Assembly (NCBI RefSeq): GCF_009797935.1
Contig: NZ_VOLC01000019.1
Span: forward strand, 62,001-126,000
Length of the DNA stretch: 64,000 nt
Direction: 5' to 3'
Origin: Lunatibacter salilacus
GTDB taxonomy: Bacteria > Bacteroidota > Bacteroidia > Cytophagales > Cyclobacteriaceae
In this document: piece by piece, positions 36,156 to 44,491 of the stretch
Position numbering within the stretch: the first letter of the stretch is position 1
Layout: every line of letters starts with the position of its first letter
Program-made: the position numbers and the translations under genes
Notes under the pieces: model-generated
What the model saw: only the letters and a program-made list of their open reading frames with translations
Told to the model about the DNA's origin: nothing
Databases searched by the model: none

Positions 36156-39100
36156 ATGAAAAATCCTATACCGTTAGCCATTCATTTGGCCAAATTGTTT
36201 ACTTATGTTTTCTTAGTCCAGTTGGTGTCAGTGGGCTTGTTATTTGCTAACGACACACATGCTCAGATAAAGAACATTGAAGAAGTAATGATCAGTGTAA
36301 AGTTCCACAATACCAAAGTGGAGAGGGCATTTTCCCGGATTGAAAAGGTGTCTGGGTTCAATTTTATATACTCTGGAGAAGATTTGAAACAGCTTTCACC
36401 CATTACTATTGACGGTGATGAGACAAGAAGTTTGTATGAAATACTTCAAAACATCTCGTCACTAACAAAACTAGAGTTCCGACAGGTCAACAATAACATT
36501 CACGTCAGAGTAAAGGGGAAACCTATAGTTGAGGAAGTAGCCGTTGAAATGTCACAAGAAGCCGCAGCCTTTCCAATCACAGGGGTAGTAACCGACGAAT
36601 CCGGCGAATCTCTCCCTGGTGCTACCGTAATAGTGGAAGGGACAACCATTGGGACAGTTACCGATGTTGATGGTAAATTCTCTCTCGATGTAGAGCAGGG
36701 GGCTGTTTTGGTAATATCGTTTGTTGGTTTTGAAACCCAGAAAGTCACAGTTGGTGCCGCTACTACCTTAAACGTCCGGATGATCATGGATTCAAGATCA
36801 CTTGAAGAAGTAGTTGTGGTTGGATACGGTGAACAACGAAAAGTCACTTTCACCGGATCGGTGTCTTCGGTGGGAGGTGATGCTATCAGAACAGCTCCAG
36901 TCACCAATGTAAGCAATAGCTTGGTAGGTAGGCTTCCCGGTCTGAGTTCTGTAACCAGAAGTGGTGAGCCTGGAAATGATGATTCCACCATTCGGATAAG
37001 AGGGACCAACACCTTGGGTAATAACGGTGCTTTGATTGTAGTGGATGGTATACCAGGTAGGTCATTGGCCAGGATAGACCCTAATAGTGTGGAAAGCATA
37101 ACGGTTTTAAAAGACGCTTCTGCCGCTATTTATGGTGCCCAAGCGGCGAATGGGGTAATATTGGTTACTACCAAAAGAGGAAAAAGCGGAAAAGCAATCA
37201 TTGAAATAAACTCCAATCTTGGCTGGAACCAACCCACCGTGCTACCTGAAATGGCAAATGCGGAACAGTACCTCACCATGCTCAATGAGATAGATATGTA
37301 TAGGAACAGGCCAGTGAGGTTTACGGATCAGGAAATTAGTAATTTCAGGGAAGGCACAGACCCTTGGCTTCACCCTGATACAGATTGGTTTGGAGAAGTG
37401 CTTAGGCCTTGGGCACCTCAAAGTTACCATACCGTAACAGCTTCTGGGGGAAATGAGAGTATAAATTATTTCGTCATGTTTGGTGCTAAAGGCCAAGATG
37501 GTTATTATTATAATAGTGCCACCCGATACGATCAGTATGATTTCAGAAGCAACCTGGACGGAAAAATAAATGATTATATAAAAATCGGTTTTGATGTGGC
37601 CGGCCGACAGGAGGTAAGAAATTTCCCTACCCGTTCAGCAGGCAATATTTTCAGGATGATCATGCGGGGTAAACCAAATATGCATGCTTATTGGCCTGAC
37701 GGCAGTCCCGGGCCGGATATCGAGTATGGTGACAATCCATCTGTCATCACCACAGATGCCACAGGCTATGACCAGACCAATATGTACAATTTACAAAGTA
37801 CGTTGCGGTTGAATATAGATGCGCCTTGGGTAAAAGGCCTTTCCTTTAATGGAAACGTAGGTTTGGATCAGACGTTTACGATGCAAAAGAGATTCGAAAC
37901 GCCTTGGTTTCTATACTCTTGGGATGGAAATACACTTGGACCAGACGGAACACCTGAATTGGTCAGAGGACAAAGAGGCTTCAATGATCCCAGGTTAACT
38001 GAAAATATGGGTGCAGACAGGCAGCTGCTTGTCAACGGAATGCTTAATTACAACCGTACCTTTCAAAATGACCATTCCATGAGGTTAATGGTAGGTATGG
38101 AATCCCGGACTGGATATGGCAACACACTAAATGCATTCCGTCGATTTTTTGTTTCTACTGCGGTGGACCAAATGTTTGCGGGCGGGAATGCTGAAAGAGA
38201 CAATGGTGGATCTGCCTATCAAAATGCTCGGTTTAATTATTTTGGTCGGTTCAATTATGAGTTTCAGGAAAAATACCTGGCAGAGTTTGTATGGCGGTAT
38301 GACGGCTCTTACATTTTCCCACAAGGTAGCAGATTTGGGTTTTTTCCCGGAATTTCCGTCGGATGGAGGGTCTCCGAAGAAGATTTTTGGAAAGGATTCA
38401 TGCCTAATGCCGACCACTTTAAAATCAGGGCCTCATATGGACAGACGGGTAATGACCGGATCGATGAGTGGCAGTACCTAGCGTCCTACGGTTTTGGAAA
38501 TATCCCTTATATTTTTGGCGTTGACCAGGAGAACCAAGCACTTAGAGAACTCAGGATACCAAATCCAAACGTAACCTGGGAAGTGGCCGACCAGTATAAT
38601 TTTGGCGTTGAACTGGGTTTCTTCAACAGTCGCCTTACAGTAGAAGCTGATGTTTTCTACAATTATCGCTCACAGATCCTCTGGTGGAGAAATGCTTCTA
38701 TTCCAGTGTCTACGGGATTGACCCTTCCCCGAGAAAATATTGGCGAGGTATCCAACAGAGGCTACGAATTTATCACTACCTATAATGGAAACGCAGGTGA
38801 TTTAACCTATCAGATTTCTGCCAACGCAGGTTATGCCCTAAACAGGGTGGAATTTTGGGATGAATCTCCCGGTGCTCCTCAATATCAACAAACTACAGGC
38901 CGACCTATCCCGACCAATCCAAATAATCCCAACCAGGATCTTTTCTATCAATCAGTTGGAATCTTCAGGGATCAGGAACAACTAGATGCAACCCCACATT
39001 GGCCGGGAGCCAGGCCTGGGGACATCATATTTGAAGATGTCAATGGTGATGGTGTGATTGATGGAAATGACAGGGTGAGAAATGAGCGAAATAACATACC

Positions 39101-39566
39101 CAGGTTTACCGGGGGGCTGAATATGAGCGCACAATGGAAAGGATTTGACTTGTCCATTTTATTCCAAGGAGCTACTGGAGCAGTAAGATATGTCAGTACA
39201 GAATCTGGGGAAATAGGCAATTACTTAAAAGATTTTGCCGACAACCGATGGACGCCTGAGAATAGTAATGCCAATTTTCCACGCACTTTCAACAGGACCG
39301 ATGAATATTGGATGAATCAGCGAAACACATTCTGGCTCAACAGTACAGATTATGTTAGGTTAAAAAACCTGGAACTGGGTTATAATTTCCCGTCATTTAT
39401 TGCCAGTAAGTTGGCACTACAGAATTTCAGGGTTTACATCAGTGGCTTTAACCTTTTCACTTACGCACCCGACCTCAGGAATTTTGATCCGGAATCTGAC
39501 AGTGCTAGTGGACAAAGCTATCCCCTACAACGTGTGATCAACAGTGGTTTGACTTTAACCTTTTAA
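36156..39566 (+). CDS. SusC/RagA-family TonB-linked outer membrane protein with STN domain
   Basis: 1136 residues, full length. Signal peptide (1-36), STN domain (about 45-120), carboxypeptidase-regulatory-like domain (about 140-210; ITGVVTDESGESLPGATV), VVVVGYGEQRK (219-229), plug (about 232-350; RIRGTNTLGNNGALIVVDG) and 22-strand barrel ending in LTLTF. Imports a glycan or other oligomer together with the SusD lipoprotein encoded 4 bp downstream. STN plus the upstream sigma/FecR pair indicate trans-envelope signalling. Confidence 0.96.
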   Translation: MKNPIPLAIHLAKLFTYVFLVQLVSVGLLFANDTHAQIKNIEEVMISVKFHNTKVERAFSRIEKVSGFNFIYSGEDLKQLSPITIDGDETRSLYEILQNISSLTKLEFRQVNNNIHVRVKGKPIVEEVAVEMSQEAAAFPITGVVTDESGESLPGATVIVEGTTIGTVTDVDGKFSLDVEQGAVLVISFVGFETQKVTVGAATTLNVRMIMDSRSLEEVVVVGYGEQRKVTFTGSVSSVGGDAIRTAPVTNVSNSLVGRLPGLSSVTRSGEPGNDDSTIRIRGTNTLGNNGALIVVDGIPGRSLARIDPNSVESITVLKDASAAIYGAQAANGVILVTTKRGKSGKAIIEINSNLGWNQPTVLPEMANAEQYLTMLNEIDMYRNRPVRFTDQEISNFREGTDPWLHPDTDWFGEVLRPWAPQSYHTVTASGGNESINYFVMFGAKGQDGYYYNSATRYDQYDFRSNLDGKINDYIKIGFDVAGRQEVRNFPTRSAGNIFRMIMRGKPNMHAYWPDGSPGPDIEYGDNPSVITTDATGYDQTNMYNLQSTLRLNIDAPWVKGLSFNGNVGLDQTFTMQKRFETPWFLYSWDGNTLGPDGTPELVRGQRGFNDPRLTENMGADRQLLVNGMLNYNRTFQNDHSMRLMVGMESRTGYGNTLNAFRRFFVSTAVDQMFAGGNAERDNGGSAYQNARFNYFGRFNYEFQEKYLAEFVWRYDGSYIFPQGSRFGFFPGISVGWRVSEEDFWKGFMPNADHFKIRASYGQTGNDRIDEWQYLASYGFGNIPYIFGVDQENQALRELRIPNPNVTWEVADQYNFGVELGFFNSRLTVEADVFYNYRSQILWWRNASIPVSTGLTLPRENIGEVSNRGYEFITTYNGNAGDLTYQISANAGYALNRVEFWDESPGAPQYQQTTGRPIPTNPNNPNQDLFYQSVGIFRDQEQLDATPHWPGARPGDIIFEDVNGDGVIDGNDRVRNERNNIPRFTGGLNMSAQWKGFDLSILFQGATGAVRYVSTESGEIGNYLKDFADNRWTPENSNANFPRTFNRTDEYWMNQRNTFWLNSTDYVRLKNLELGYNFPSFIASKLALQNFRVYISGFNLFTYAPDLRNFDPESDSASGQSYPLQRVINSGLTLTF

Positions 39567-39570
39567 GACA

Positions 39571-41373
39571 ATGAAAAGCAACAAAACAATATATGCGATT
39601 TTGCTTGCCTTGGCAGTATGGGTGAGTTCTTGTAGTGAAGAATTTTTGGACCGCCAGCCGTTGGACCAGTATGCGGAAGTTGCGGTCTGGAACGATGAAA
39701 ATCTGATAGAGACATTCGTGAACAACATTTACTTTGCCGTTCCTCATGGATTCCATGCTTTAATGATGTCCAGCCTGGTGGATGAGTCCATGGCCGTATG
39801 GGATTGGGAAACCAGTAATGCCACCAAAAGTCTTATCAATCCAAGTTACTTGGGTGTTTGGGATGAAAATTTCTGGACAGGTAGAAGATATCAACAGATT
39901 AACTGGACAAATGGATTTAGGCAAATAAGAAACTGTAATATATTTATGGAAAAAATCGGCGATGCTGAATTTGCCGATGAAAATCTAAAAAGCAGACTTA
40001 TAGGAGAGGTCCATTTTTTACGGGCATTTATCTATCACAATTTACTATCCATTTATGGAGGTGTACCTTTGATAAAAGGGGCCTATGGATTGGGAGAAGA
40101 TTATGAACAGCCAAGAGCGAGCTATGCAGAGGTACTGGCATTTGTGGTAGAAGAAGCTGACAAAGCCGCCGAACTGCTACCCTTACAACAACTTGGGAGT
40201 AACATGGGCAGAGCTACCAAAGGAGCTGCATTAGCGATAAAAGCAAGGGCTTTGTTGTATGCAGCGAGTGACCTTTACCATAATCCCTCATGGGCACAGG
40301 GTTTTTCCCAACCTGAACTTATCAGTTTCACTTCCGGTGATCAGATGAGCCGATGGAGAGCCGCCAAAGATGCAGCAAGAGATGTCATGGATTTGGGATT
40401 GTATTCACTACATACCAGTGGCGAAGATCCATCTGAAAATTTCCAACAATTGTTTATATCTAAAGAAACTTCAGAAGACATTTATGTGAGGTTTTTGTTG
40501 CAAAGGGTACAGGAAAATTGGGATATTGGAGACCCTGGATTATTTAATGGACCCAATGGATATCATAACTGGGGTGGAAATACACCTATTGGGCAATTGG
40601 CAGATGATTTTGAAATGGCTGATGGTACCAAGTTTGACTGGAACAATCCCAACCATGCAGCCGATCCTTATGGTAGCCGAGACCCAAGGTTTTATGCTAC
40701 TTTTCTCTATGAAGGTGCACAATGGAGACAGAGGCCTGCGAATTTGAGGGATTCCGATCCTCAAGGGATTATCCAGGTAGGTCAATGGGAAAGGTACAAT
40801 GCAGCTACCAACCGGGTTGATATTGTCAATGGTTTGGATACCAGACAAGGCCCCATCGAAGATTGGAATGGTACGTACACAGGCTATTACCTCAAGAAAT
40901 TCATTGATCCAAACGTCGATCATCAGTACTTTAGACAAGAAGTTCCTTGGAGAGTGATGAGATACACTGAAGTGCTTCTTAATTATGTGGAAGCATGCAT
41001 AGAATTAGGTGAAGAAAGCGAGGCCAGAACTTACCTGAATATGATCAGAGAGCGGGCAGGTATGCCTCCTGTGACTGATTCTGGACAAGATCTAAAAGAA
41101 AGGTACAGAAATGAAAGAAGGGTGGAATTGGCTTATGAGGACCATCGCTATTTTGATGTGAGAAGATGGATGATTGCCCCCTCAGTTTATGGAGATGCCA
41201 CAGGAGTCAGGGTAAGGTATCAGTTACTGCCGGACAATACTACTTCCCCAAATCCGACCTATACTGTTATCAACGTTCAGGAAAGGGCATGGCAGGACAG
41301 GTCTTACCTTTTGCCAATAAAACTGGATGAAATGAACAGAAACTTCTCACTGATTCAAAATCCCCTTTATTAA
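39571..41373 (+). CDS. SusD/RagB-family nutrient-binding outer membrane lipoprotein
   Basis: 600 residues. Lipobox at VSSC (Cys 21), then the typical EEFLDRQPLDQY start of mature SusD proteins. N-terminal TPR-like SusD part includes LIGEVHFLRAFIYHNLLSIYGGVPL (about 142-166); the C-terminal part has YRNERRVELAYEDHRYFDVRRW (about 511-532), a strong RagB/SusD marker. Forms the lid of the SusC channel and binds the substrate on the cell surface. Directly follows susC. Confidence 0.96.
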   Translation: MKSNKTIYAILLALAVWVSSCSEEFLDRQPLDQYAEVAVWNDENLIETFVNNIYFAVPHGFHALMMSSLVDESMAVWDWETSNATKSLINPSYLGVWDENFWTGRRYQQINWTNGFRQIRNCNIFMEKIGDAEFADENLKSRLIGEVHFLRAFIYHNLLSIYGGVPLIKGAYGLGEDYEQPRASYAEVLAFVVEEADKAAELLPLQQLGSNMGRATKGAALAIKARALLYAASDLYHNPSWAQGFSQPELISFTSGDQMSRWRAAKDAARDVMDLGLYSLHTSGEDPSENFQQLFISKETSEDIYVRFLLQRVQENWDIGDPGLFNGPNGYHNWGGNTPIGQLADDFEMADGTKFDWNNPNHAADPYGSRDPRFYATFLYEGAQWRQRPANLRDSDPQGIIQVGQWERYNAATNRVDIVNGLDTRQGPIEDWNGTYTGYYLKKFIDPNVDHQYFRQEVPWRVMRYTEVLLNYVEACIELGEESEARTYLNMIRERAGMPPVTDSGQDLKERYRNERRVELAYEDHRYFDVRRWMIAPSVYGDATGVRVRYQLLPDNTTSPNPTYTVINVQERAWQDRSYLLPIKLDEMNRNFSLIQNPLY

Positions 41374-41597: not shown

Positions 41598-42704
41598 TTA
41601 TTTCGGCCATGGTGCTTTTTCCGAAATCAGTTTTTTCTCAACCAATTCCTCCCAGAATTCCTGAGGAATTTTTACTTTCATGGATTCCACGTTTTCACGT
41701 GCCTGCTCCGGGTACCTTGTGCCTGGAATGACCGCGGATACAATGTCAGGAGCTGCCGAAAACTGTAAAGCGGCCGTTCTTAAGTCCGTGCCGTGTTTTT
41801 CGGCTAGTTCGCTCATTTTTTTCCGTTTCTCTTTGAAACCCTCCGGGATTTCTCCCCAGTAATCGTAGCGGTCAATTCCGGCAAGAAACCCGGCATTCAA
41901 TGGGGCACCCACCACTATGTTCACTCCTTTATCTTCACAAGCCGGAAATAACCTCTCCAAAGCGTCTTCATGGTACATCAGCGAATACTGAGTGGCCGAC
42001 AGACATACGTCGGGATCTGCGATTTTCAAGGTTTCCAAAATGGGTTCTATCCGGTTGACACCCAAGCCCCAGCCTTTAATCAATCCTTCCTCTCTCATCT
42101 TGGTCAACTCAGGCATGGCTCCTTCGGTGGCTACCTTGAAATATTCTTTCCAATTTTCCTTCATGTCTCCGTTATCGGGAGATAGATCGTGGATAAATAC
42201 GATGTCTATACTATTGATACCTAGGCGTTGGAGACTGTCTTCAATCGATCGGCGTATGCCTGATGCCGTATAATCGTACTCGTAGTCAAAAGGAGAGGCA
42301 TCCTTCCAAGTGTTGTACTTTGGTGGCTCCTTTGCGGCTTTTAATATCCTACCGACTTTTGTCGCAAGGATGTATTCTTCCCGCTTTTTGTTGTGGAGAA
42401 AGCGTCCAAAGCGACGCTCACTCAGGCCCAGACCATACCAGGGGGATGTGTCAAAAAACCTTACGCCGGCTTCCCAGGCTCCTTCCATTGCCTGTTGGGC
42501 CAGTTCATCCGTCGTAGGGCGGAAACCATTACCAATCGCCACACCGCCTAAACCAAAATTGGAAGGCAGATTTATGTTATTTAGTTTTGATCTTTCTTTC
42601 ATATCCGTACCGTTTTCAAAAGCAAACCCCGGCAAATAGGAGGCCATACCAGTGGCCATCCCCATTTGCAGGGACTTGCTTATAAATTTTCTTCTTGAGT
42701 TCAT
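41598..42704 (-). CDS. Aldo/keto reductase with Tat-like export signal
   Basis: 368 residues. N-terminal NSRRKFISKSLQMG resembles a twin-arginine signal, so it may act in the periplasm, unusual for this family. AKR tetrad visible: D85 and Y90 (FFDTSPWYG), K116 (ATKVGR), H172 (FIHD). The closest functional type I recognise is the D-threo-aldose/L-fucose dehydrogenase group (GLGLSERRFGRFL). Oxidises an aldose or reduces an aldehyde with NAD(P). Its neighbour across the terminator is the susCD locus, so a role in the imported sugar is possible but not shown. Confidence 0.9.
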   Translation of the reverse strand: MNSRRKFISKSLQMGMATGMASYLPGFAFENGTDMKERSKLNNINLPSNFGLGGVAIGNGFRPTTDELAQQAMEGAWEAGVRFFDTSPWYGLGLSERRFGRFLHNKKREEYILATKVGRILKAAKEPPKYNTWKDASPFDYEYDYTASGIRRSIEDSLQRLGINSIDIVFIHDLSPDNGDMKENWKEYFKVATEGAMPELTKMREEGLIKGWGLGVNRIEPILETLKIADPDVCLSATQYSLMYHEDALERLFPACEDKGVNIVVGAPLNAGFLAGIDRYDYWGEIPEGFKEKRKKMSELAEKHGTDLRTAALQFSAAPDIVSAVIPGTRYPEQARENVESMKVKIPQEFWEELVEKKLISEKAPWPK

Positions 42705-42885: not shown

Positions 42886-42919
42886 TAAAAAAAGCTATGA
42901 AACAGAATCTCATAGCTTT
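42886..42919 (-). terminator. Terminator of the tRNA-like RNA
   Basis: Minus strand AAAGCTATGA (42919-42910), 9-nt loop, TCATAGCTTT (42900-42891) and a T-run. It ends the RNA and separates it from the aldo/keto reductase gene downstream. Confidence 0.9.
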
Positions 42920-43103
42920 AGTCAATTAACAATAAACCCAAAATAACCTGCTGTAGGAGAAGGAGTCGAACCTCCACGGGGCAGTTAGGCAAAAACACGA
43001 GCTCGATGTTTGCTTTATCCTGAATTCCCCACCCCCGAGACCGGAGGGCATGTCTGCCAGTTTCATCATCCTACAGTATAAAAGACCATTTGTCTTTGTT
43101 TGA
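42887..43103 (-). ncRNA. Stand-alone structured RNA with tRNA-like domain (not a decoding tRNA)
   Basis: About 215 nt. After a consensus promoter the RNA has a 5' hairpin (AAAGAC/GTCTTT, 43097-43081). A 125-nt tRNA-like body follows (43075-42951): 7-bp acceptor stem TGTAGGA/TCCTACA, class-II D-arm-like AAACTGGCAGAC, anticodon-like stem CCCTC/GGGGG with loop CGGTCTC, a huge variable arm (GGGG/CCCC base, inner GCAAA..CGAG/CTCG..TTTGC), and a canonical T arm GGAGG-TTCGACT-CCTTC. A Rho-independent terminator ends it. U33 is G, no CCA is encoded and the length is about 40 nt above class-II tRNAs, so decoding is unlikely. I do not know a family for it; YrlA-like tRNA mimics are a thought. Confidence 0.65.
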
Positions 43104-43108
43104 TGTTT

Positions 43109-43140
43109 CAAAGGTAGCAGGTTGCCACCTAATTTGCAAA
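43109..43140 (-). promoter_or_regulatory. Consensus Bacteroidota promoter of the tRNA-like RNA
   Basis: Minus strand TTTG (43140-43137), 20-nt spacer, TACCTTTG (43116-43109). Both boxes match the TTTG / TAnnTTTG consensus at an accepted spacing. The start is expected at about 43103, some 28 nt before the tRNA-like acceptor stem. Confidence 0.75.
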
Positions 43141-43267: not shown

Positions 43268-44491
43268 TTAGGCCCGATTTTGCTTCAAATCAGGAAGTCC
43301 CCATGTGACGAGACCCAATAATGGCAGAAAAGAACATATCAGAAAGACGAATTCTATGCTTGTCCTGTCAGCAAGATTACCCAGTAAGGCAGAGCCCAGC
43401 CCACCCATTCCAAAGGCAAAACCAAAAAACAACCCAGATATCATACCGACCCTTCCCGGTAGAAGTTCTTGGGCATAAACCAAAATGGCAGAAAAGGCTG
43501 AGGCTAATACCACACCGATCACAACCGACAGACCAATCACCCAATGCAACCCTACATGTGGTAACAAAAGCGTGAAGGGAGCAGCTCCCAAGATGGAAAT
43601 CCAAATGATGTATTTTCTGCCGTACTTATCACCCAAAGGGCCTCCCAAAAAGGTACCCGCCGCAATAGCCGCCAGAAACACAAACAGGTAAATCTGTGAT
43701 TGGGGGATGCTTACCTGAAATTTTTCAATCAGGTAAAAGGTGAAATAGCTGGACATGGAGGCCATATAGAAGTATTTGGAAAAAATCAGCACCAATAAAA
43801 TGCCAACCGATGCTTTTACTTGACGTTTGCTTAGATTTCGTGCTGTGATTGATTTCTTTGAAGATTTGATGGTAGATTCAATGGCTAGATAATTTTTGTA
43901 CCAAACCCCGACCTTGATTAATGCAAAAATGGCCAACAAGGCTCCCAAGGCAAACCAACGGATATTTCCCTGCCCATAGGGCATCACAACCACTGCCACC
44001 AACAAGGGTCCGATTGCTGACCCGGCATTCCCGCCAATCTGAAAAATAGATTGTGCCAGCCCCCGTCTGCCACCGGATGCCAGGTAGGCAACTCGGGATG
44101 ACTCTGGGTGAAATACGGAAGAACCCATTCCAACCAGCCCGGCGGCAAAAAGAACAATCCCATAACTTCCAGCAGATGCCAATAGGATCAGTCCTACCAA
44201 TGAAAACCCCATTCCCATAGCTAAAGAAAAAGGCTGCGGATGCTTGTCTGTGAAAAGGCCTACGAAGGGTTGTAAAAGAGACGCAGTAATCTGAAAGGTC
44301 AGTGTAATCAATCCTATCTGCGTAAAAGTCAGCAGATAATTCTCTTTCAATAGGGGATATACCGCAGGCAGTACAGACTGAACGAGATCATTGAGCAGAT
44401 GAGCAAAACTAATCGTAAACAGAATGGGATAAACTGTCGAATTGACTGCGGATACCGGTGCCGACGTGGCCGCTGTTTGGATTTTATTCAT
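43268..44491 (-). CDS. MFS transporter, fosmidomycin-resistance (Fsr) type
   Basis: 407 residues, 12 predicted membrane helices. Fsr-type features: FAHLLNDLVQSVLPAVYPLL near the N-terminus, GMGSSVFHPESSRVAY after helix 4, and QSIFQIGGNAGSAIGPLL. Proton-driven exporter of small polar compounds; fosmidomycin is only the namesake. It overlaps the M28 peptidase gene by 8 bp at its start, so both are co-translated, and it could export or import a product of the peptidase/NlpC set. Confidence 0.9.
   Translation of the reverse strand: MNKIQTAATSAPVSAVNSTVYPILFTISFAHLLNDLVQSVLPAVYPLLKENYLLTFTQIGLITLTFQITASLLQPFVGLFTDKHPQPFSLAMGMGFSLVGLILLASAGSYGIVLFAAGLVGMGSSVFHPESSRVAYLASGGRRGLAQSIFQIGGNAGSAIGPLLVAVVVMPYGQGNIRWFALGALLAIFALIKVGVWYKNYLAIESTIKSSKKSITARNLSKRQVKASVGILLVLIFSKYFYMASMSSYFTFYLIEKFQVSIPQSQIYLFVFLAAIAAGTFLGGPLGDKYGRKYIIWISILGAAPFTLLLPHVGLHWVIGLSVVIGVVLASAFSAILVYAQELLPGRVGMISGLFFGFAFGMGGLGSALLGNLADRTSIEFVFLICSFLPLLGLVTWGLPDLKQNRA

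Follow-up and report, generated by a model that had tools for sequence, protein, structure and literature searches.

What is the role of an RNA gene that has the body of a tRNA but, as an earlier note put it, no usable anticodon? The question is raised by a minus-strand locus in the window, the whole 64,000-nt stretch of DNA analysed here, which belongs to contig C10 of the 6.8-Mb genome of Lunatibacter salilacus (G000). The gene is flanked by two ORFs, named by eye from their translations, of which one resembles an aldo/keto reductase (41598-42704) and the other an MFS-type transporter (43268-44491); a SusC/TonB-type and SusD-type ORF pair (36156-41373, plus strand) precedes the locus and looks by eye like ordinary glycan-uptake genes. 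The parts listed in the earlier note are all present, and all on the minus strand. A Bacteroidota-type promoter, TTTG-N20-TACCTTTG, spans 43109-43140 (TTTG at 43140-43137, 20 nt, then TACCTTTG at 43116-43109), and the motif TAnnTTTG lies at most 130 nt upstream in 37 of the 46 family members chosen for a promoter check. A 5' leader hairpin follows (AAAGAC/GTCTTT, 43081-43097; sequence and folding), and then the RNA body of 125 nt including G73 (42951-43075), which matched the covariance model described below with 142.1 bits. Its perfect 7-bp acceptor stem joins TGTAGGA (43069-43075) to TCCTACA (42958-42952), with G73 at 42951 and an encoded C74 at 42950 completing the 3' strand (42950-42958). 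The D arm (ATG...CAT, 43050-43066) has GG18-19 in its loop, and the anticodon arm (CCCTC-CGGTCTC-GGGGG, 43032-43048) places G33 at 43042, G34, U35 and C36 at 43041-43039 and C38 at 43037. An oversized variable arm (42978-43030) and the T arm (GGAGG-TTCGACT-CCTTC, 42959-42975) complete the body, and the gene ends in a predicted intrinsic terminator (42891-42919), with a 13-pair stem and then a run of U; one such prediction was made at the locus against a shuffle mean of 0.2. The earlier observation that CCA is not encoded is accurate, but G73-C74 is, as C74 also is in ordinary tRNA genes of this genome as printed.

That the gene might prove to be an ordinary tRNA or a known Rfam family, an outcome the earlier note had allowed for, did not come about for the window copy. 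ARAGORN found no tRNA anywhere in the window, a search of the window against Rfam 15 at gathering scores gave no matches, a search of the locus at E<=10 returned no tRNA family, and RF00005 placed none of the 36 tRNAs it found in the L. salilacus genome at the RNA loci. The folding energy of the single sequence lends the body little support (z of -1.3, or -3.1 with flanks); the real evidence is covariation. In a model-fitted alignment of 104 distinct rows, which leans toward the model because it was fitted to it and which includes two poor rows (one cut, one of 28 bits), 99.1% of helix cells were paired against 92.1% in shuffles, and 15 of 24 pairs showed two-sided change against 6.9, a number reached in none of 500 shuffles. 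Sliding the partner strand by one to three columns lowered pairing to 61-69%. In the MAFFT alignment behind the model, 98.9% were paired and six pairs changed on both sides against 4.1, a value reached by 15 of 500 shuffles. The outer D-stem pair, for example, is A-U in 60 rows, U-A in 19, G-C in 12 and unpaired in 12. The RNA therefore has the covarying 7-bp acceptor stem, T arm and GG-bearing D arm of a tRNA-like acceptor, and the earlier description of a self-contained, conserved tRNA-like RNA whose acceptor and T-arm pairs covary in homologues is borne out.

The extra length comes from a variable arm with a covarying 4-bp stem (GGGG 43030-43027 with CCCC 42981-42978 in the window copy), a conserved internal loop (GGATAAA 43020-43014 and CTAAC 42988-42984) and a hairpin of free length, which here carries an apical palindrome, CGAGCTCG, at 43005-42998. 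An intron-containing tRNA is thus unsupported; with introns allowed, ARAGORN made one call among 30 family loci, an intron-containing tRNA-Arg at L017 on the RNA's own strand. One member, an 83-nt match in genome G048 (L081, 4034-4116, minus strand), lacks the long arm and has A34, and keeps U35, C36 and C38; the arm is therefore dispensable for the core of the family. An optional motif near GGGTTGACCAC recurs inside the variable arm at L055-L059, L065, L070-L075 and many phage loci.

The family is widespread. BLASTN with 251 nt hit 46 of 59 relatives, where a few hits were short and chance-like, and showed genomes with several copies and, in places, tandem arrays. A covariance model built from 39 members (MAFFT alignment) was positive in 45 of the 59 at E<=1e-14, with up to six copies per genome, and in one relative (G050) the copy is truncated where a contig ends. 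L. salilacus itself has five members at this threshold, namely the window copy and copies on contigs C11 and C22 with identical model scores, one on contig C68 and a more diverged one on C11; copies match one another over 277-322 nt, and one pair over 523 nt; a mobile element was considered as the reason and set aside. Partial copies on contigs C44 (288741-288828, L035), C15 and C33 retain only the 3' end and part of the terminator, and in G009 a decayed-looking relic beside an asnC-like gene (L388, 1127-1242, minus strand) keeps the acceptor and T arm around an unrecognisable anticodon arm. In a phylum sample the listed family members scored at least 70.8 bits and the next matches 62.5 bits or less; the seven of these next-best matches that were checked were ordinary tRNA-Leu. 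A second model, built from naturally short members, was applied to 295 genomes from the class, of which 50 reached at least 60 bits; with G148, which was clear with the first model only, 51 genomes are counted as RNA-positive, and the remainder may include a few more positives because the second model alone was run there, save for genomes also in the phylum search. A pattern scan reported at least 119 loci; of the 80 listed, the model confirmed 79 as carrying a member, the exception (L180) being labelled Streptosporangiaceae. Hosts among the matches listed included Mucilaginibacter, Pedobacter, Chitinophaga, Hymenobacter, Cyclobacterium, Algoriphagus, Dyadobacter, Spirosoma, Saprospiraceae and one MAG labelled Ignavibacteriales. 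The RNA is thus spread over several families of Bacteroidia as well as phages, and the suggestion that it is specific to Bacteroidota holds in that it has so far been met almost only there and in their phages. It has no Rfam 15 entry, as judged from a scan of the window copy alone, and no published description was found at title and abstract level, a search outside which subscription papers mostly fall.

What the RNA may do is best approached through the bases that it holds and those that it leaves free. Loop bases were counted in 102 distinct members (108 BLASTN or model matches minus four duplicates and two rows shorter than 75 nt), which are not independent events because the set is weighted toward family f1. 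U35, C36 and C38 were present in all 102, G34 in 98 (A or C in four) and C32 in 82. Position 33, in contrast, was T in 65, G in 28, A in six and C in three, and position 37 was T in 93, C in seven and G in two, so the U33 and purine 37 of decoding tRNAs are not kept; the G33 stressed in the earlier note is present in the window copy and is not a trait of the family. Because the loop contributes to BLASTN and model scores, though it is not required, members whose loops differ could have been overlooked. The first pattern scans, bacterial and viral, force R34, T35, C36 and C38, and their loop counts were therefore not used, their acceptor-end counts being unaffected. G73 and C74 occurred in 106 of 106 rows of at least 75 nt, and U1-A72 and G2-C71 were unvarying in 103 of 103 countable rows; position 10 varied between A, U and G, and G1-C72 was absent.

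These bases point to particular partners. The five strong aspartate determinants given in the portion of PMC9976931 used here are G73, G34, U35, C36 and C38, and the RNA would present all five to AspRS; the same source tabulates G10 for Bacteria and terms G1-C72 and G2-C71 crucial, and of these G10 and G1-C72 are missing. The serine, leucine and glutamine sets in its table fit less well. U1-A72 is recognised by bacterial GatCAB (PMC4206432, in excerpt), so that the acceptor end would suit this amidotransferase also; among L. salilacus tRNAs as printed, U1 is found in tRNA-Asn and tRNA-Gln only. Compared with the tRNA-Asp of its own genome, the RNA shares C32 (in the 82 members above), G34, U35, C36, C38, G73 and G2-C71, and differs in not keeping U33 and purine 37, in U1-A72 instead of G1-C72 and in its class II body. 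That body resembles tRNA-Leu overall and in the D loop, and the nearest non-member matches checked are Leu tRNAs, whereas G73 replaces A73 in every row and U1-A72, the GUC loop, the free position 33 and a usually much larger variable arm set it apart. The RNA therefore appears chimeric in identity, its anticodon loop being of aspartate type and its acceptor end of asparagine/glutamine type, on a tRNA-Leu-like body. The claim of no usable anticodon stands in so far as the RNA is apparently non-decoding, but the loop is not degenerate and keeps the bases that AspRS reads, which points to aminoacylation and not to the scaffold role that had been suggested.

The distribution of GatB is consistent with such a substrate. 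GatB was present in 226 of the 295 class-sample genomes, in 51 of 51 with the RNA against 175 of 244 others (p 6e-7), and within families f22 and f23 in 10 of 10 RNA-positive and none of five RNA-negative listed genomes (p 3e-4); these statistics, which ignore kinship, come from an overlap compared by hand, where absence of GatB in G179, G572, G075 and G172 means that they are missing from the listed positives. At least three class IIb synthetase matches were found in 32 of 32 genomes tested, RNA-positive and RNA-negative alike, and in four of these genomes (three positive, one negative) the third match was identified as AsnRS, so GatCAB is not the sole route to Asn-tRNA there. The AspRS of L. 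salilacus is of the bacterial type.

A second association is with a divergent Lrp/AsnC-type gene (Pfam AsnC_trans_reg in three examples). In E. coli, AsnC is encoded divergently from asnA, an asparagine synthetase gene, and responds to asparagine. The AsnC-like gene lay near the RNA, always divergently, in 40 of 64 genomes with loci examined (52 loci, some places fetched twice and with flanks often of 1.5 kb only), at 108-217 nt in 39 of them and at 1,644 nt in one. Among neighbouring ORF clusters present in at least three loci it alone recurs across distant clades; other neighbours are clade-specific (fadD/sufB, frr/pyrH and trmB/ogt-like, named by eye, with SufB confirmed). Of the 59 relatives, 45 have both an AsnC ortholog and the RNA, one the RNA only, five AsnC only and eight neither (Fisher p 5e-6, again ignoring kinship), where G050 counts as RNA-positive, G009 as negative and G038 as AsnC-positive although its 154-bit match may be a paralog. 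By coordinates the gene adjoins an RNA copy in 32 of the 46 RNA-positive relatives, and it is somewhere in the genome in 45; the RNA-positive exception is G041, which, with the five relatives that have AsnC and no RNA, speaks against the link. In L. salilacus it is on a contig other than that of the window.

One explanation for these data, which we regard as quite plausible if still short of probable, is that the RNA is a non-decoding carrier that is charged with aspartate by AspRS and amidated to asparagine by GatCAB. AspRS would load the RNA through its aspartate bases; GatCAB, reading U1-A72, would then convert the bound aspartate to asparagine, which in a hypothetical last step would be freed or passed on, and the AsnC-like regulator would control the amount of RNA. 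A GUC RNA carrying asparagine would not be expected to insert it at aspartate codons, given that U is not maintained at position 33, that a purine is rare at position 37 and that the variable arm is bulky. A carrier unable to mistranslate is the simplest reading of a pattern in which AspRS bases are held, ribosome bases are free, the acceptor end is of GatCAB type and GatB and AsnC track the RNA. In the known transamidation pathway, which shares the U1-A72 mark, the carrier is the decoding tRNA-Asn (GUU) and a non-discriminating AspRS is needed (PMC4206432, in excerpt), whereas this carrier would have an aspartate loop, suit an ordinary AspRS and not decode. Several points count against the proposal. 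G10 and G1-C72, the latter of which helps to place the acceptor end in E. coli AspRS, are absent; G34 and the non-purine at 37 have their few exceptions; and ordinary tRNA-Asn here also has U1-A72, so that a relaxed AspRS could use it instead. The 175 RNA-negative genomes with GatB indicate that GatCAB does not need the RNA, this enzyme might serve tRNA-Gln, and the AsnC-like protein scored 176 bits against an AsnC cut-off of 227.

The same aspartate determinants, the missing G1-C72 and G10 and the AsnC association would also fit an RNA that binds AspRS via its anticodon loop without being productively charged, a decoy or sensor that adjusts Asp-tRNA or AspRS in concert with AsnC. We consider this unlikely, though worth keeping in mind, as the G73-C74 acceptor end is kept in every counted row and the invariant U1-A72 and the GatB association would be left unexplained.

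Phages also carry the RNA. A viral pattern scan reported at least 120 loci, and of the 80 listed 77 matched the model with at least 66 bits, two were cut by a contig end and one had no match. Among the matches listed, U1-A72, G73 and C74 were found in 68 of 68 distinct phage RNAs and G2-C71 in 67; in a scan with the loop unconstrained, whose pattern fixes stem bases, GUC and C38 were found in 26 of 26 distinct phage members, with T, C or G at position 33 and T at position 37 except for one C and one A. Some phage members match over 97-102 nt only, and an INPHARED search with one phage member gave no match. The RNA lies near terminase and portal genes at L320 and near polymerase and endolysin genes at L288, and on several large phage contigs it sits among up to 26 tRNA/tmRNA genes, with tmRNA in three of the 15 contigs examined. 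The viral tmRNA genes are at L303 (1363-1749), L313 (5143-5517) and L314 (3393-3776), and L303 and L313 have 24-25 tRNA genes. tmRNA, which shares some of these arrays, is also a tRNA-like acceptor that does not decode by an anticodon, but the RNA has no reading frame and has a full cloverleaf with anticodon arm. A kissing-loop homodimer was rejected for the bacterial members, as variable-arm palindromes of at least 6 nt are at chance (61 of 102 against 57.9 expected; pattern-found members, 52 of 103 against 62.9). In phage members, which are related sequences, they reached 49 of 54 against 38.0, and 41 of 54 against 14.3 for at least 8 nt; a long palindrome that differs between contigs stands soon after GACCAC in many of them (L292, L275, L243, L313 and others), and dimerisation of these RNAs is possible.

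Another possibility, which we judge rather improbable, is an aminoacyl donor for a non-ribosomal product such as a lipid, peptide or cell-wall modification, of which the non-proteinogenic tRNA-Gly of Staphylococcus, with its class I body, is the known type. That tRNA is likewise withheld from translation as an amino-acid donor, because it binds EF-Tu weakly and has lost GG18-19 according to part of PMC4052509, whereas the RNA keeps GG18-19. An acceptor end of tRNA type on a body ill-suited to decoding and the presence of several copies in a genome, up to six, would suit a donor, but inspection by eye of the ORF clusters in at least three loci revealed no transferase-like gene, and a place in phage tRNA arrays better suits translation supply. 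Charging by SerRS through G73 and the long variable arm is very unlikely. The available part of PMC9976931 does count G73, G2-C71 and a large variable arm among serine determinants, yet the bacterial serine set as given there names no anticodon base, and U35, C36 and C38 are invariant. C72 is never found (A72 in 103 of 103), C11-G24 occurs in nine of 103 only, and the armless member of G048 still keeps the three loop bases. Almost negligible is a mimic of the kind once suggested, bound by Ro60/Rsr like the tRNA-mimicking bacterial Y RNA YrlA, or a dedicated tRNA for RqcH tailing: mimicry, tmRNA alongside the RNA in some phage arrays and NFACT_N in 53 of 59 relatives would fit, but both were rejected on their distributions, as TROVE occurs in seven of 59 relatives with no Ro60 gene in the L. 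salilacus genome, and NFACT_N is absent or weak (G316, G218, G234; E 4e-5 to 7e-4) in RNA-positive genomes of f22, f23 and f26 and matches well in many RNA-negative ones.

Bacteria with AsnRS, GlnRS and GatCAB, including some Bacteroidetes, can be devoid of both AsnA and AsnB, and may make asparagine on tRNA-Asn (PMC4206432, in excerpt). In such bacteria the RNA would offer another carrier beside tRNA-Asn. A wider and more speculative proposal, which we hold to be possible, is that this is a tRNA gene family for amino-acid biosynthesis and not translation, an orthogonal carrier that would link a discriminating AspRS to GatCAB without Asp-to-Asn mistranslation, under an asparagine-sensing regulator, and borne by large phages beside their tRNA sets, in some cases with tmRNA. 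To our knowledge, no earlier tRNA gene family has been set aside for such a purpose. Even without a mechanism, a conserved and often multi-copy RNA of many Bacteroidia and phages with no Rfam 15 entry is a gap in genome annotation. If the carrier reading is true, it would explain how Bacteroidota with AsnRS and GatCAB make asparagine without a relaxed AspRS, and would mean that a cell can uncouple the identity by which a tRNA is charged from its ability to decode; the RNA would be a natural orthogonal tRNA scaffold, and one that matters, as large phages bring their own copy.
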